A DNA stretch of 64,000 nt from Myxococcales bacterium. Lineage in GTDB: Bacteria; Myxococcota; Myxococcia; Myxococcales; Myxococcaceae. Numbering within the stretch: position 1 is the stretch's first letter; each line of letters begins with the position of its first letter. The translations under genes and the position numbers were made by a program. Positions 49,281 through 55,957 of the stretch are shown here, in pieces. The stretch is from the NCBI GenBank assembly GCA_020846875.1, contig JADLDB010000074.1, positions 62,001-126,000 on the forward strand, given 5' to 3'. A model generated the notes under the pieces. It searched no databases, had not been told where the DNA came from, and worked only from the letters and a program-made list of their open reading frames with translations.

Positions 49281-50813
49281 ATGGCTCGCCTCCTGTCCGC
49301 CGCCCTCGTCGTCGCCTTCCTCTCCGGCTGTCCTGCTTCCCAGGAAGGCCCCCAGGGGCCCGCCGGACCGCAGGGGATCACCGGCGCGCAGGGGCCCGCC
49401 GGTGCCCAGGGTCCAGCGGGGCCGGAAGGGCCGCAAGGGCCCCCCGGGCAGGTGCTGGTGGTGGACGGCGGCGTGGTGACAGGTCCTCCTGGGCCGCGCG
49501 GGGCATCGGTGGTGATGACGCTCTTGTCGCCCGGCGCGGAGTGCGCGGCCGGTGGTGTGCGCCTGGCGCTGGAGGACGGCGGAGCCCCGCAGGTGGTCTG
49601 CCACGGCGCGGCCGGCGCCCAGGGGCCGCAGGGCCCAGCGGGGATGGCGGGCACGAATGGCACCGCCGTCACCGTCACCGCGCTGGACGGCGGCGCGTGC
49701 CCCTACGGCGGAGTGCGGATTCAAACCGACGGCGGGGCGCCCGCGTACGCCTGCAGCGGCGCGCCCGGTGCGCAGGGCCCCGCCGGCACCCAGGGAGCGC
49801 AGGGCCTCCAGGGCCCACAAGGGCCGCAGGGGCCGCAGGGGCCGCAGGGGCCGCAGGGCCTCCAGGGGCTGCCCGGCGCCGCGGGGACGTCGGTGACGGT
49901 GACAGCGGTCAGCGTGGGCGACTTCAACTGCCCGTACGGTGGCTCGCGCTTCGTGGTGGGCAGCGTGATCTCCTACGCCTGCAGCGGCGCGCCGGGGCCG
50001 ATGGGTCCTCCGGGGCCCGGGGGCGGCGGCTCGGGTGACGGCGGCGTGGTGTCCTCCCCCGAGGGCGCGGGCACCGAGGGCTACGCCTTCCTCGGCTTCA
50101 CCACCGCCAGCTTCTCGGGGGATCTCGGCGGCCTGCAGGGCGCTCACGCGAAGTGCGCCGCGCAATACGCCCAAGCCCACCTCTGCACCTGGCGGGAGTA
50201 CCAACTGCTGGGCTCCGCCGCCCCGCTGCCCGCCGGCGGCGCGTGGGTCGACAGCGCCCGCTACCCGAGCAGCGCGACGCCCGCCGTGTCGCCGCGCGAT
50301 CGCGAGAACAGCTACGCCTGCAACAACTGGCGCTCCTCCGTCGACTCCAACGCCGGCTTCCTCGACAGCCAGGGCATCTACACCAGCACCTACGCGGCCA
50401 ACGCCTGCGCCACCGCGCGCCCGCTCGCCTGCTGCCGGGGCCCGCAGGGAGCGTGGTTTCGCGGCTTCACCACCGCGTCCTTCAGCGGAGACCTGGGAGG
50501 TCTGCAGGGGGCTCACGCCAAGTGCGCCGCGCAGTTCCCCGGCGCGCACCTGTGCACCTGGCGGGAGTACGGCCTGGTCGGCTCCTCGGCTCCCGTTCCG
50601 GCGGCGGGCGCCTGGGTCGACAGCGCGCGCTACCCGTCCTCTTCGACGCCCAACGTCACCCCGCGGGACCGCGAGAACAGCTACGCCTGCAACAACTGGC
50701 GCTCCTCGGCCGACTCCAACGCCGGCTTCCTCGACAGCCAGGGCATCTACACCAGCGCCTACGCGACCAACGCCTGCGCCGCCGCGCGCCCGCTGGCCTG
50801 CTGCTCCAACTGA
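49281..50813 (+). CDS. Collagen-like lipoprotein with duplicated C-terminal domain
   Basis: 510 residues. The lipoprotein signal ([17 protein letters not shown]) is followed by Gly-X-Y triplets in three blocks: about 23-56, a short one near 114-122, and about 156-200 (runs of GPQ). Non-collagen stretches with Cys lie between. The end holds two 114-residue domains, 87 percent identical by eye (about 15 differences), each with [26 protein letters not shown] and LACC. These resemble DUF1554-type domains, which are secreted and Cys-rich. The protein probably projects from the surface as a trimeric stalk with a head. Confidence 0.85.
49806..49872 (+). repeat. GPQ-coding tandem repeat
   Basis: GGGCCGCAG-type nonamers repeat five or more times, encoding Gly-Pro-Gln triplets. 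They are nearly identical at DNA level, so copy-number change by slippage is likely. Confidence 0.8.
50094..50435 (+). repeat. Duplicated head domain, copy A
   Basis: 114-codon unit from [10 protein letters not shown] to LACC. Copy B is at 50463-50804 with the same length and no gap. Both contain six Cys at the same positions. The high identity points to a recent tandem duplication or gene conversion. Confidence 0.85.
50463..50804 (+). repeat. Duplicated head domain, copy B
   Basis: Second copy of the 114-codon unit, ending two codons before the stop. Differences from copy A cluster in the middle loop ([10 protein letters not shown] versus [10 protein letters not shown]) and near the end. 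Confidence 0.85.
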
Positions 50814-50853: not shown

Positions 50854-51528
50854 ATGGAGCTGGTGGCCGAGTCGCTGCGCCTCACCTTCGGGAAGGTGCA
50901 CGCCCTGGAGGACGTGAGCCTCACGGTGCCGGGTGGATCCCGCCTGGTGCTGAGCGGCCCCGCGGGCGGAGGGAAGACGTCCCTGCTCAAGTGCCTGGCC
51001 GGGCTGGTGGCGCCGTCGTCAGGTCAGGTGCGGTGGGCCGGCCGGGACGTGGCGGCGCTGTCCACCGTCGAGCGCCGCGCCGCGCAGGTGGCCTTCGGCA
51101 TGGTGTTCCAGACGGACGCCTTGTTCGACTCGATGACGGTGCTGGACAACGTGCTGCTGCCCTTGCGCAAGCGGGGCGTGGCCGAGGACGAGGCGAAGGA
51201 GCGCGCCTTCGAGGCCCTGGGCCGGGTGGGCCTCATGGACGCGGCCTTCAAGCGGCCCGAGGTGCTGTCCGGCGGTATGAAGAAGCGCGCCGGCGTGGCG
51301 AGGGCCATCGTCGCGCGGCCGGCGGTGCTGCTGGCGGACGATCCCTTCGCGGGCCTCGATCCGGTGACGGAGGGCTCGATCGCCGCGCTCCTGCTCGAGG
51401 TCTCGGAGGGGCGGACGCTGGTCGTCGCCCTGCCGGATCCGGTCGCCTCCCTGCCGGTGGAGCGCCGGCTGCGCCTCGTCGGGGGCCGCCTGGCCGGGAA
51501 TGACGATTGTCGGACTCGTCGGACCTGA
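50854..51528 (+). CDS. ABC ATPase, Mla/Mce type, with degenerate catalytic residues (NBD1)
   Basis: 224 residues. Walker A is GPAGGGKT (35-42), the Q-loop is Gln86 and the signature LSGGM (138-142) is normal. Walker B reads VLLADD (158-163), so the catalytic Glu is Asp163. The H-loop is VALPDP, with Pro194 in place of His. This ATPase should bind ATP but hydrolyse poorly. It lies upstream of the permease operon, separated by an antisense gene. The last residues (NDDCRTRRT) come from a short repeat crossing the stop. Similar to MlaF in layout, with a partner ATPase at 54255. Confidence 0.85.
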   Translation: MELVAESLRLTFGKVHALEDVSLTVPGGSRLVLSGPAGGGKTSLLKCLAGLVAPSSGQVRWAGRDVAALSTVERRAAQVAFGMVFQTDALFDSMTVLDNVLLPLRKRGVAEDEAKERAFEALGRVGLMDAAFKRPEVLSGGMKKRAGVARAIVARPAVLLADDPFAGLDPVTEGSIAALLLEVSEGRTLVVALPDPVASLPVERRLRLVGGRLAGNDDCRTRRT

Positions 51529-51545
51529 TGCCTGACGTGTCTGAC
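51509..51545 (+). repeat. Short GTCNGAC repeat cluster across the end of the NBD1 gene
   Basis: GTCGGAC at 51509 and 51518, GCCTGAC at 51530, and GTCTGAC at 51539 lie 9, 12 and 9 bases apart. They run through the stop codon at 51526-51528, so the last few residues of the protein are repeat-encoded. Confidence 0.6.
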
Positions 51546-51768
51546 CTTTCTCGCACACGATGTCCGCCGACGTTCTGCGCGGGGCGGGGTCGAGCCCCCG
51601 CGGCCTGCCTGGAGCGCCTGCGCGACGCGATGGCCGACACGCTGCGCGCTGCCCCGACGCGATCGCCGCATCCCGCCCCCGGACGCTGCGGGCGATGCGG
51701 CGCGAGTGGGAAGACAGCCTGGCGCGGCACACCACCGGACGTCGAGGCCACGCCGGCGCCCTCCGTCC
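51529..51768. other. Intergenic stretch between NBD1 and the antisense gene
   Basis: Apart from the end of the GTCNGAC repeat cluster (51539-51545) I see no supported gene. Open frames on both strands here lack a ribosome site and have Arg/Ala-rich composition typical of random GC-rich sequence. Confidence 0.6.
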
Positions 51769-52641
51769 CTACCGGCGCAGGCTGTGGCGCGCTTCGTACT
51801 CCAGGATCAGGTAGTCGGTGGCCGCGGCGGCGGTGGCGGCGTACAGACGATGGAGCCCGGGGAAGCTGGCGTTCGACTCAAGCTGGAGCCCGTCCTGCCG
51901 TGGAATGCCCAGCAGCCCGGAGCGGAAGGTGCGGCTGAGGAAGGCCCACGTCCGGTGTCCCGTCGACACCGGTACCGGCTGTTCATTTCGCGTCAGGCCG
52001 ACGTCGAAGAGCGCTTCGTGCGTGGCGCCATCCCAGACGGTCATGGCGCGCGGGTACTGGCCCGGCCGCAGGCGAAAGCTCATGCGCGTCTGCTCTCCGA
52101 AGACGCCCATGTCGACGCGGCACAGCAGCCGATCGCCTGCGTCCAGCAGCTGGGCTTCCTTCCAGGTGACGACCAGGTGCCCCAACAGCTCGCCGCCCTC
52201 GAGCCACTCGAAGACGTCCTCCAGCTCGAAGCGCAGCGAGTCCACCAGCGCGCCCAGGAGACCCGCCCCCTGCACGACGAAGCGGCAGAGCTCGTCGTCG
52301 CCGTCCTGCAGCGCGTAGCCGACGCCCTCCTCCCCGCGAGCGTCCGTGATCTCCCTGCGCCGCGCCACCCGCACGCGCTCGAGGCCGGCCAGCCTTTCCA
52401 CCAGGGCGTCCTGCGGCCCGCCCCTCGGGCGGCGAGTCACCTTGCTGCGCCCCACGGTCGTCTTGAGCTGCGTGACGTCGTCCGGGCGCGGCGCGTCCGC
52501 CTTTCGCTTCACCGCGGCTCGGCCCGGCGTCGTCGCGACCGAGCTGAGGTCGGCCGGCGGTCTTCTGGCCACCGCCGGCCGCCGGGGCTGGGTGGGCACG
52601 TCCTCGGGCTTCTTCGGCGCCATCGAGCCACCTTCGGACAC
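51769..52641 (-). CDS. Hypothetical cytoplasmic protein, antisense within the transporter locus
   Basis: 290 residues from a GTG at 52641, directly behind AGGAGGAGG (52647-52655), a very strong ribosome site. An ATG at 52623 is a weaker alternative. Residues 1-85 are basic and Pro-rich, likely disordered. From 85 there is a folded-looking domain with ELCRFVVQGAGLLGALVDSL and LLGHLVVTWKEAQLLDAGDR, then a beta-rich end. No family recognised. It is transcribed away from the permease genes, 88 bases from the first, so the two may share a control region. Confidence 0.65.
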   Translation of the reverse strand: MSEGGSMAPKKPEDVPTQPRRPAVARRPPADLSSVATTPGRAAVKRKADAPRPDDVTQLKTTVGRSKVTRRPRGGPQDALVERLAGLERVRVARRREITDARGEEGVGYALQDGDDELCRFVVQGAGLLGALVDSLRFELEDVFEWLEGGELLGHLVVTWKEAQLLDAGDRLLCRVDMGVFGEQTRMSFRLRPGQYPRAMTVWDGATHEALFDVGLTRNEQPVPVSTGHRTWAFLSRTFRSGLLGIPRQDGLQLESNASFPGLHRLYAATAAAATDYLILEYEARHSLRR

Positions 52642-52729
52642 TCCGGCCTCCTCCTCAAGCGGGATGACCCGCGGGTGGCCAGGGCGAAAATCCGGCGGGG
52701 GCCCGGCCCCGTCGTAGAGTGCCGGGCGG

Positions 52730-53512
52730 ATGCTGGTCCTCCCCTTGCGCTTCGTGGGCGCGGTCGCGCTGTGGGCCGTGCGCTTCTTCGGCGCGGTGGG
52801 GCTGGTGTCCGCCCGGACGCTGCTGCACCTGCCGCGGCTGGACGCGCGCGAATTGGCCCGCGCGCTGGTGCTGTTCGGCTACCGCAGCCTCCCGCTGACG
52901 TTGGGCGCGGCGACGCTGATCGGCGCCACCGTGGTGCTTCAGGCCGGCGTCTACGCGAACCAGCTTGGCGTGCGGCTCTACGTGGGCTGGGCCGCCGGCT
53001 TCGCGCTGGTGTGGGAGTTCGGCCCGCTGCTCCTCGGCCTCATCATGGCGGCGCGGATCGGCGCGCGGAACGCGGCGGAGCTGGCGCTGCTCACCGTCAA
53101 CGGCCAGATGGAGGGCCTGCGCGGCATCTCGCTCGATCCTTTCCGGATCCTCGTCGCCCCCCGCGTGGTGGCGAGCGCGCTGTCGGTGCTGGCGCTGGCG
53201 TCGGTCACCTTCCTCGTCTCCATCCTCTGGGAGGCGGTGGCGGCCTACTTCACCCTGCACCTCCCGCTGCGCGCCTTCCTCGCCTCCTTCGAACTCATGC
53301 TGCGCTGGGGCGACCTGGTGGGGGGGATCTGCAAGTCCACCGCCTTCGGCCTGGCGATCGCCGTCGTCTCCACGGCGGCAGGCCTGCGGGCGCGCGGTGG
53401 CGCTGAGGGCGTGGGCCGGGCGGCGGCAGCGGCGGTGGTGGCCTCCTGCGCGGCGATCTTCGCGCTGGACTTCGCGCTCACCCCCTTTCTCTCGAGGCTC
53501 TTCGCCGCATGA
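52730..53512 (+). CDS. MlaE-family permease, first copy
   Basis: 260 residues, five to six membrane segments. The core has FGPLLLGLIMAARIGARNAAELALLTVNGQMEGLRGIS (in pieces), matching the conserved EF-P-----G--A-R--A--AAELG---V-EQ-DAL region of MlaE/YrbE permeases. They form the inner-membrane channel for lipid transport between membranes. The next permease starts within its stop (ATGA at 53509), which implies a heterodimer. Direction of transport is unknown. Confidence 0.88.
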   Translation: MLVLPLRFVGAVALWAVRFFGAVGLVSARTLLHLPRLDARELARALVLFGYRSLPLTLGAATLIGATVVLQAGVYANQLGVRLYVGWAAGFALVWEFGPLLLGLIMAARIGARNAAELALLTVNGQMEGLRGISLDPFRILVAPRVVASALSVLALASVTFLVSILWEAVAAYFTLHLPLRAFLASFELMLRWGDLVGGICKSTAFGLAIAVVSTAAGLRARGGAEGVGRAAAAAVVASCAAIFALDFALTPFLSRLFAA

Positions 53513-54255
53513 CGGGCGTCCTTCAGTTGGTGGGCGCCCAGGCGCTCCTGCTGGTGCGCAGCGCGCAAAGCGCCCGCCGGGAAGGGCTGTCCCGCAAGGA
53601 GGTCCTCAAGCAGGCCGCCGAGTTGGGCGCGGCGTCGGGGCTGCTCATCGCGGTGGGCATGGCCTTCTTCGGCACGGTGCTGGTCACCATCGCCTGGGCG
53701 CAGGCCCGCAAGTACACCGGCAACATCAGCCTGGTGGGGCCGCCCTACTTCGAGCTGATCATCCGCGAGTTCTCCCCGCTGCTGACCGCGCTGCTGGTGG
53801 CCTCGCGCGCCGCCGCCAGCACCTCGGCCGAGCTGGGCGCGATGGCCGTCAATGAGCAGGTGGAGGCGCTGGAGCTGTCCGCCGCCGATCCGCTGGCCGA
53901 GCTGGTGGCGCCCCGGGTGCTGGCGTCGATCCTCACCGTGCCCTTGCTCACCGCCCTCGGGGTGGTGACCTCGGCCGCGGCGGCGGCCCTCACCGTGACG
54001 TATGCCTTCGGCGCCGACGGCGGGTCCTTCATCGATCCCCGCTTCGTGGACGGGGGCGACCTGCTCTGCGCCTTCTTGAAGGCGGTGCTGAACGGGGCCT
54101 TCATCCCCCTGGCGGCGTCGCTGCGGGGCCTGCGGGCCAGGGGCGGCGCCGGCGCGGTGGGCGAGGCCGTCACCCTGGGCGTGGTGGAGGCGTGCATGGG
54201 CTGCCTGCTGATCGACTTCGTGGTGGCCGCGGTCTTCCTGATCCTGGGCGTGTGA
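53509..54255 (+). CDS. MlaE-family permease, second copy
   Basis: 248 residues. The conserved segment is REFSPLLTALLVASRAAAST then SAELGAMAVNEQVEALELSA, closer to classical MlaE than the first copy. About six membrane helices. Its stop overlaps the ATG of the ATPase gene by one base (TGATG). Two different permeases side by side resemble the YrbEA/YrbEB pairs of mycobacterial mce loci rather than the single mlaE of E. coli. Confidence 0.9.
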   Translation: MTGVLQLVGAQALLLVRSAQSARREGLSRKEVLKQAAELGAASGLLIAVGMAFFGTVLVTIAWAQARKYTGNISLVGPPYFELIIREFSPLLTALLVASRAAASTSAELGAMAVNEQVEALELSAADPLAELVAPRVLASILTVPLLTALGVVTSAAAAALTVTYAFGADGGSFIDPRFVDGGDLLCAFLKAVLNGAFIPLAASLRGLRARGGAGAVGEAVTLGVVEACMGCLLIDFVVAAVFLILGV

Positions 54256-54935
54256 TGACCCAGGCCCTCGTCCTCTCCGACGTGTCCCGCCGCTTCGGCC
54301 CGGTGCCGGTGCTCTCGCACCTGTCGGTGGAGATCCCCCTGCGGGGCATCACCTTCGTGGTCGGCAAGTCCGGCAGCGGCAAGTCGGTGCTGTGCCGCCT
54401 CGGCGTGGGCCTGCTCAAGCCCGACGCCGGCACGGTGACGCTGCTGGGCGAGCGGGTGGACACGCTGCCGGAGCGCAGGCTGGCGGCGCTGCGCGCGCAG
54501 GTGCCGTACCTGGTGCAGGGGCCGGCGCTGCTGGACTGGCTGACGCTGGCGGACAACGTGGCGCTGCCCGACGCGCGCGCGAAGACGGACGGCCGCGCGC
54601 AGGAGGCGATGGAGCGCGTCGGCCTCACCGCCTTCGCCACCCGCTTCCCGCCGGAGGTGGGCCCGGGGATCCGCAAGCGCGCCGCCATCGCCCGCGCCCT
54701 GGTGCTCGCCCCCAGGGCGCTTCTGCTGGACGAGCCCACCACCGGGCTGGATCGGGAAGCAGCGGGCCAGGTGAACGAGACTTTGGCGCTGCTGCGCGCG
54801 CAGGGGCTGGCGGCCATCGTGGTGTCCCACGACTTCGCGGCGCTGGAGCTGCTCGCGGATCGCGTCGTCGAGGTGGCGAAGGGGCAGATCGGCTACCAGG
54901 GGCCGAAATCGGGATTCAGCGGCGCGTTGTCGTAA
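54255..54935 (+). CDS. ABC ATPase, Mla/Mce type, with degenerate signature (NBD2)
   Basis: 226 residues from an ATG overlapping the permease stop. Walker A GKSGSGKS (37-44), Gln88, Walker B ALLLDEP with Glu160, and H-loop His192 are intact. The signature is VGPGI (135-139) instead of LSGGQ. So this subunit can hydrolyse ATP but offers a poor signature to its partner. This complements NBD1. In the operon it sits between the permeases and the MCE-domain gene (11 bases before it). Confidence 0.9.
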   Translation: MTQALVLSDVSRRFGPVPVLSHLSVEIPLRGITFVVGKSGSGKSVLCRLGVGLLKPDAGTVTLLGERVDTLPERRLAALRAQVPYLVQGPALLDWLTLADNVALPDARAKTDGRAQEAMERVGLTAFATRFPPEVGPGIRKRAAIARALVLAPRALLLDEPTTGLDREAAGQVNETLALLRAQGLAAIVVSHDFAALELLADRVVEVAKGQIGYQGPKSGFSGALS

Positions 54936-54946
54936 GAAAGGTGCCC

Positions 54947-55957
54947 ATGGACGAGTCACGCTTGGAGCTGAAGGTGGGCGCGCTGGTGGTGGCCGCCGTC
55001 TCGGGGGTGCTGTTGCTCCTCTTCTTCATGGGCGAGCTGTCCCTGGGCGGCGAGGTGACGGTGAAGGTCGACTTCGCGCACACCGGCAGCGTGGTGAAGA
55101 ACGCCCCGGTGAAGCTGGGCGGCGTGCAGGTGGGCCACGTGACGCAGGTGGCGCTGCTCGCGTCCCGCCGCGACGACCGCGGCCGGGTGATGCCGGTCGA
55201 GATGACCCTGGCCATCTCGAAGGAGGCCGCCGCGGCCCTGCGCGCCGACGCCGCCGTCACCGTGTCCAGCCAGGGGCCGCTGGGCGAGTCGTACCTGGAG
55301 CTCTGGCCGGGATCCGCCCCGGACGGCTTCGATCCCAAGGAGCCGATCCGCGGCACGGACGCGCCCCGCCTCGACGTGGTGTCCAACCGGCTGGCGCACT
55401 TCCTCGACGCCGCGTCCGACGTGCTGGAGAAGGATCCCGAGGCGCTGGCCAAGCTGTTCCACGGCGTGGCCGGCCTCACCACCACCGTGGACGGCGTGCT
55501 GACCGAGAACCGCGACGACCTGAAGACGCTCACCAGCGAGCTGGCCGCCACCGCCAAGGACCTGCGCGCGCTGGCCGCCACCGCCCGCACCCAGCTCGAG
55601 CCGGGCGGGAAGACGGCCGTCCTCATCGACGACGCCGCCGCCACCGCGAAGCTCGCCCGCACCGAGCTGCCCGAGCTCTCGAAGAAGGCCAACACCGCGC
55701 TCACCGGGGTGGCCGCCGTCGCCGGGCAGTTCACCGAGGAAGACGGCAAGCGCCTCAAGGAGATGATCGCGAAGTACCAGGCCGCGGGTGAGAAGATGGA
55801 CGTGATCGCCGCCCGCGCGGATCGGATCCTCGCGCGTCTCGAGGCCGGCGACGGCACCTTGGGCGCGCTGATGAAGGACAAGCAGGTCTACACGGACTTG
55901 AAGGATCTCCTCGCCGACCTGAAGGCGCACCCGTGGAAGTTCCTGTGGAAGGACTGA
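54947..55957 (+). CDS. MlaD-family MCE-domain protein
   Basis: 336 residues. A membrane anchor (VGALVVAAVSGVLLLLFF, about 10-30) precedes one MCE domain (38-115) with GSVVKNAPVKLGGVQVGHV and GPLGESYLELW. A long helical region (about 140-320) follows, including repeated ALAATARTQL-like helices. MCE proteins form hexameric lipid-binding rings or tunnels in the periplasm. The long helical C-terminus suggests a bridge like YebT or PqiB but with one domain only. An AAGAAAGG before the ATG serves as ribosome site. Confidence 0.92.
   Translation: MDESRLELKVGALVVAAVSGVLLLLFFMGELSLGGEVTVKVDFAHTGSVVKNAPVKLGGVQVGHVTQVALLASRRDDRGRVMPVEMTLAISKEAAAALRADAAVTVSSQGPLGESYLELWPGSAPDGFDPKEPIRGTDAPRLDVVSNRLAHFLDAASDVLEKDPEALAKLFHGVAGLTTTVDGVLTENRDDLKTLTSELAATAKDLRALAATARTQLEPGGKTAVLIDDAAATAKLARTELPELSKKANTALTGVAAVAGQFTEEDGKRLKEMIAKYQAAGEKMDVIAARADRILARLEAGDGTLGALMKDKQVYTDLKDLLADLKAHPWKFLWKD

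Follow-up and report, generated by a model that had tools for sequence, protein, structure and literature searches.

In a 64,000-nucleotide stretch of a Myxococcales genome of 7.06 Mb (hereafter the window), a gene cluster was identified that encodes two ATPases of the ATP-binding cassette (ABC) superfamily with complementary motif defects. Their nucleotide-binding domains are termed NBD1 and NBD2; the cluster further comprises two permeases of the MlaE family (PERM1 and PERM2) and an MCE protein. On the basis of the sequence evolution of these components it is highly probable that they form a lipid ABC transporter of the MCE type (MlaFED-like), in which an obligate NBD1-NBD2 heterodimer would act under a PERM1-PERM2 heterodimer carrying an MCE ring with a helical conduit. 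One ATP site (site A), composed of the Walker A/B motifs and the H-loop of NBD1 and the signature of NBD2, would be degenerate, binding ATP with slow or absent hydrolysis. The other (site B), composed of the Walker A/B motifs and the H-loop of NBD2 and the LSGGM signature of NBD1, would be complete and drive the cycle. The MCE ring would top the permease heterodimer and extend as the helical conduit. The motifs, their partition, the degree to which they are conserved and the joint presence of the genes were read directly from the sequences, whereas heterodimer formation, occupancy of the sites by nucleotide, turnover at a single site and the lipid substrate are inferred.

Partition of the motif defects between two ATPases

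NBD1 (224 aa; 50854..51528, plus strand; Pfam ABC_tran, E 4.6e-30) possesses a Walker A motif (GPAGGGKT), a Q-loop (Q86) and an intact signature (LSGGM, residues 138-142; 51265..51279). The catalytic Glu following Walker B (..LLADDP) is replaced by Asp163 (51340..51342) and the H-loop His by Pro194 (51433..51435). NBD2 (226 aa from the ATG at 54255; 54255..54935, plus strand; ABC_tran, E 1e-24) contains the Walker A motif GKSGSGKS, the Q-loop residue Q88, the catalytic Glu160 (54732..54734) and the H-loop His192 (54828..54830), the latter two being invariant in the alignment, and has VGPGI (residues 137-141; 54663..54677) in place of LSGGQ. Each of these residues was confirmed by translation and alignment; the two signatures and the residues at the Glu and His positions had been named in the original prediction. 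A misalignment of the H-loop was rejected, as the columns alongside the His/Pro position are free of gaps in both NBD sets.

In the head-to-tail dimer of ABC proteins, each site consists of the Walker A/B motifs and the H-loop of one subunit and the signature of the other (PMC7756269). It follows from this established geometry that all three defects fall into one composite site and that the other site is complete. Judged from the motifs, a complete ATP site can form only in an NBD1-NBD2 heterodimer, since a homodimer of either protein would have two defective sites. All motif features of the degenerate-site class were found, i.e. an altered signature in NBD2, the loss of Glu and His in NBD1 and a fully canonical second composite site.

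Among 250 distinct NBDs extracted by domain scores, 106 were canonical, 67 had retained SGG and lost Glu and/or His (type-1), and 77 had lost SGG (type-2). Glu and His were kept in all of the 77 altered-signature NBDs, SGG in all of the 67 NBDs short of Glu and/or His, and none of the 250 carried both kinds of defect. Both NBD types occurred together in 55 loci of Myxococcota and, beyond the phylum for which co-occurrence had been proposed as a check, of Bdellovibrionota. The predicted concentration of the three defects in one composite site, with the other remaining canonical, is borne out by this split and by the confinement of the evolutionary changes to one site (see below). Chance or decay as the source of the motif pattern is excluded by its conservation across many relatives. 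Three of the 77 altered-signature NBDs lie outside the system, namely that of L146, which belongs to a different ABC protein, and those of L083 and L154. The latter two (L083:5989 and L154:6007) come from Pseudomonadota; they are MlaF-like, carry the altered signatures ISNGQ and ISVGV, respectively, and are located outside the type-2 clade. The L154 NBD adjoins a single permease, and homodimers of the L154 or L083 NBDs would be degenerate at both sites.

Conservation of the gene set and unlinked partners

Permease-anchored loci with their flanks were sampled from 60 relatives of the same family and order. The usual gene order is NBD1-PERM1-PERM2-NBD2-MCE, with NBD1 abutting PERM1 and, in most relatives, the MCE gene near NBD2. 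SGG is constant in their NBD1 proteins, most of which carry DDP; the place of the His is taken by P, A, S, T or N. DEP and SHD/THD are always present in the NBD2 proteins, whose signatures read VGPG, LGPG, VSAG and similar. Loci with the same NBD pair were also found in other families and in one class-level relative, and a match with this pair was obtained for L077 (Myxococcales). With an NBD2 profile, 120 of the 195 genomes searched in the phylum yielded hits at E 1e-60 or lower, canonical MlaF proteins being among these hits.

In some relatives, the operon is interrupted by unrelated genes, with breakpoints that differ by relative (L049:8160-11640, L047:3145-6470, L040:2640-5985 and L038:8535-10665). 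The inserts of L049 and L047 contain genes for a signal-peptide protein and a lipoprotein-like protein of ~800 aa, that of L040 a LysR regulator. The NBD1 of genome G027 (L050:6703-7359) has an H-loop His (AAHDA) together with DDP in Walker B, the Pro being present in its genus mate G007. In G042, an NBD1 gene adjoining the permease pair (L066:8054-8572) appears to have no readable in-frame Walker A, be it by frameshift, assembly error or loss, and NBD2 is located on another contig (L160).

A scan of genome contigs, which may omit near kin, brought up the Bdellovibrionota loci L088, L096, L099 and L109, in which the NBD pair is followed by two permeases and an MCE gene. The order in this phylum is NBD1-NBD2-permease-permease, followed by MCE in those loci whose flank extends far enough, and the motifs are split into DDP, TND and SGG on one side versus DEP, SHD and SYG on the other. 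About twenty loci with this split were detected in the 114 Bdellovibrionota genomes searched. Tandem MlaE pairs were not found in 12 genomes from which loci of other groups originated, nor were there any among the matches listed for 148 sampled genomes of the phylum to which L101 belongs.

The two ATPase genes are not always neighbors. Six genomes without an NBD1 gene near the permease pair or the type-2 NBD were revealed by an NBD1-profile search to contain an orphan NBD1-type gene elsewhere (L180, L181, L182, L183, L184 and L187). These genes encode SGG and NBD1-type losses, and permease and MCE genes are absent from the surrounding 1.5 kb. In G109, NBD1 and the permeases are located ~19 kb from NBD2 on the same contig.

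Several observations weigh against the proposed heterodimer. Some NBD1 proteins have lost only one residue (Asp or Ser with His in 4, Glu with a non-His residue in 12). At locus L162 (964-1638), NBD1 has both Glu and His and its partner NBD2 has VGPG, so that only the partner signature is altered. This NBD1, the only canonical NBD belonging to a two-permease locus, may represent a transitional state or a return to the canonical form. No homologous locus was found in which both ATPases are canonical, the case that would contradict the original prediction; L162 comes nearest, but its NBD2 still has VGPG. Moreover, NBD1 is probably not co-transcribed with the permeases in the window because the two are separated by an open reading frame (ORF) on the minus strand (51769-52641, 290 aa), which has no Pfam or NCBIfam match and for which no homologue was found in the loci fetched from relatives. 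Finally, locus L165 (G191:C80), from a genome rated 100% complete, comprises a permease pair and an NBD2 with LGPGQ; no recognisable type-1 partner was detected in G191, the remaining NBDs of which are only canonical.

The separation of NBD1 from the permeases in the window, its unlinking in several genomes and its apparent absence from G191 would fit an NBD1 that is decaying or a purely structural pseudo-ATPase, the work being done by NBD2 or by the canonical MlaF of another system. We regard this as very improbable. Walker A and the Q-loop are retained, besides SGG, in all 67 type-1 NBDs except L066 (Walker A) and L069 (Q-loop), and the NBD1 signature completes the site of NBD2, which could not form a complete site if its partner lacked LSGGQ. 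In addition, the orphan NBD1 gene has been kept after unlinking in six genomes. Decay of NBD1 following the arrival of the minus-strand ORF was rejected, since residues of the same kind are preserved in relatives that share 42-73% identity.

A second alternative to the NBD1-NBD2 heterodimer is that each ATPase pairs with itself, acting on one of the permeases or on both, and that the unusual motifs are harmless. The solved MCE transporters covered here contain homodimers, either of MlaF (PMC7367683), as the original prediction had correctly stated for E. coli, or of MceG (PMC9882608). In mycobacterial Mce1, the MceG homodimer lies under a heterodimer of the permeases YrbE1A/B (PMC9882608). For this reason a permease pair alone is no proof of an ATPase pair, and it is the NBD motifs that carry the argument. 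Yet an NBD1 pair would lack Glu/His in both sites and an NBD2 pair the signature in both. Glu, His and SGG are invariant in canonical relatives. Nor would a perfect split of the defects between two paralogues be expected across two phyla, which makes homodimers on the permeases a highly unlikely arrangement.

Evolution of the predicted degenerate site

In phylogenetic trees, the type-1 NBDs of both phyla formed one group, with the canonical NBD1 of L162 inside, and a type-2 clade held 37 of the 39 altered-signature NBDs of the reduced tree (support 96). Clustering driven by the motifs was rejected, since type-1 NBDs and L162 still formed one clade when the motif columns were left out. In the latter tree, the type-2 NBDs fell into two parts when free; a one-clade tree was not rejected and had the better score (p-AU 0.888). 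From these sequences, a single origin of the type-1 NBDs across the phyla is likely. On the other hand, their grouping may result from long-branch attraction between fast type-1 NBDs.

The tree without motif columns implied 9 changes at Glu and 13 at His (~22 in total) and none at SGG in type-1 NBDs, 14 changes at SGG and none at Glu or His in type-2 NBDs, and none at any of the three in canonical MlaF; these numbers are approximate, as they were counted by parsimony on a quickly built tree in which many forks are weak. Because the groups were defined by motifs, with any NBD of altered signature taken as type-2, part of the zeros is a consequence of this sorting; that no type-2 NBD has lost Glu or His is unforced. 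Glu, His and the signature kept changing while the motifs of the other site stayed fixed, which indicates that one site has long been under constraint and the other relaxed. The motif pattern is old and maintained, all inferred changes affect motifs that belong to a single composite site, and the heterodimeric, asymmetric transporter proposed at the outset is favored by the evolution of the sequences. Since the NBDs of either type seem to form a single old clade, the loci are not independent; the idea that the asymmetry is a single accident, fixed once, inherited and functionally meaningless, which could draw on this, is hardly credible in view of the repeated Glu, His and signature changes within the clades at constant motifs of the opposite site.

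The permease tree placed the PERM1 and PERM2 positions in separate clades within each phylum. The permeases had been supposed to be a pair and do represent two distinct paralogue lines. The pairs of the two phyla may go back to one old permease pair, but these lines do not join across the phyla in the tree.

Organization of the locus and relation to known systems

PERM1 (52730..53512, plus strand; PF02405, E 5.6e-50) and PERM2 (53509..54255, plus strand; PF02405, E 6e-44) are MlaE-family permeases, and the PERM2 frame overlaps the adjoining PERM1 and NBD2 frames by a few bases. Downstream of NBD2, just past the region 50854-54935 spanned by the ATPase and permease genes, the gene for an MlaD-like MCE protein begins (54947-55957, plus strand, 336 aa; MlaD/PF02470, E 1.3e-13). 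An AlphaFold2 model of this protein, with low confidence beyond about residue 150, shows an N-terminal membrane helix, one MCE domain composed of strands and a helical C-terminal part of ~190 residues. The helical tail of the model is compatible with a helical conduit like that of long MlaD proteins (PMC10665443). Immediately upstream of NBD1 (49281-50813, plus strand) lies the gene for a collagen-like protein of the Gly-X-Y type, whose C-terminal part contains two repeated domains with a weak match to DUF1554.

With an MlaE permease, an MCE-domain protein and an MlaF-like ATPase, the locus possesses all sequence features of MCE/Mla lipid ABC transporters. NBD1 and NBD2 grouped with NBDs of the MlaF type from MlaE loci in a tree that contained few other ABC families, scored under the NCBIfam MlaF equivalog cut-off, and in a search of solved-structure sequences with NBD profiles general ABC proteins ranked first. 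Going by its family membership, the system would transport lipids between membranes.

E. coli MlaFEDB, whose MlaF homodimer binds MlaB and is extended by a C-terminal handshake (PMC7367683), shares with the window the MlaE permeases, the MCE protein (MlaD), MlaF-like NBDs and a permease-ATPase-MCE cluster. It differs in that its two sites are canonical and equivalent and a single MlaE is present twice, where the window system has two NBDs and two permeases. The traits particular to the E. coli form, namely a homodimeric canonical ATPase, an MlaB partner and a C-terminal handshake, were not recognised at the locus, where two unlike NBDs with motif defects are encoded. Its NBDs are shorter (87 and 92 residues past the signature start in NBD1 and NBD2, respectively, compared to a median of 112 in canonical NBDs) and there is no STAS_2 (MlaB-type) gene at the locus, the three matches of the genome being located on other contigs. 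What it has in common with mycobacterial Mce1 are two different MlaE-type permeases and a long helical MCE part, but Mce1 employs one shared ATPase, the MceG homodimer, and six different MCE proteins (PMC9882608). Veillonella parvula MlaEFD is likewise a minimal system without MlaB, and its long MlaD is elongated by a helical stretch (PMC10665443). That system has a single MlaF and MlaE, and the beta-barrel in which its MlaD ends (PMC10665443) was not seen in the low-confidence MCE model of the window.

As had been predicted, the ATPases resemble heterodimers such as TAP and TM287/288, where the same three changes define the degenerate sites; as in TAP, TM287/288, BmrCD and Pdr5, the signature of one NBD is altered and the Glu of the other is changed to Asp, often with a change of His, within one composite site (PMC7756269). 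In human degenerate sites, the NBD2 signature is altered in all cases, the exchange of Glu for Asp is the second commonest change and H-loop changes are frequent, and exporter sites with this exchange apparently still hydrolyse ATP, much too slowly for the cycle (PMC7756269). The membrane part sets the systems apart: TAP, TM287/288, BmrCD and Pdr5 have exporter-type membrane domains, whereas the window encodes separate MlaE-type permeases and an MCE protein. The exporter-type membrane domain of type I ABC exporters, commonly fused to the NBD, is lacking. By its sequence, the system is a member of the MCE family that would work like degenerate-site heterodimers and stands outside the exporter family. 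A report of paired degenerate ATPases in MCE systems was not found in the open-licence literature, in agreement with the initial remark that no description of the pattern was known for these transporters.

The same genome contains two further MlaE systems (L035 and L036), each with one permease, a fully canonical NBD and an MCE gene. Like these two, the canonical single-permease MlaF relatives show no motif defects. An orphan canonical MlaF-like NBD (LADEPTAGLD, THD) is also encoded in this genome, at L253 (G000:C36:77563-78228), where no permease or MCE gene lies within 1.5 kb; a similar gene occurs in G031 (L202).

Implications

It is rather probable that the window system represents an ancient MCE class predating the split of Myxococcota and Bdellovibrionota, with an obligate heterodimer of one hydrolysing site, and that its asymmetry arose independently of TAP and TM287/288. 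The stable, degenerate site might keep the NBDs together, determine the direction of transport or time the MCE ring. A stabilising role is a speculation that is attractive given the absence of the handshake extension of the MlaF type. An asymmetric MCE motor conserved in two predator-rich phyla would be a clean system for asking what a non-hydrolysing site does, and would help to ask whether lipid movement between membranes needs both ATP sites. The direction of transport is still debated as a question for MCE systems in general, and coupling would be easier to dissect in a motor with one active site. For annotators, the partition of the motifs provides a simple rule by which orphan ATPase genes may be tied to their permeases.

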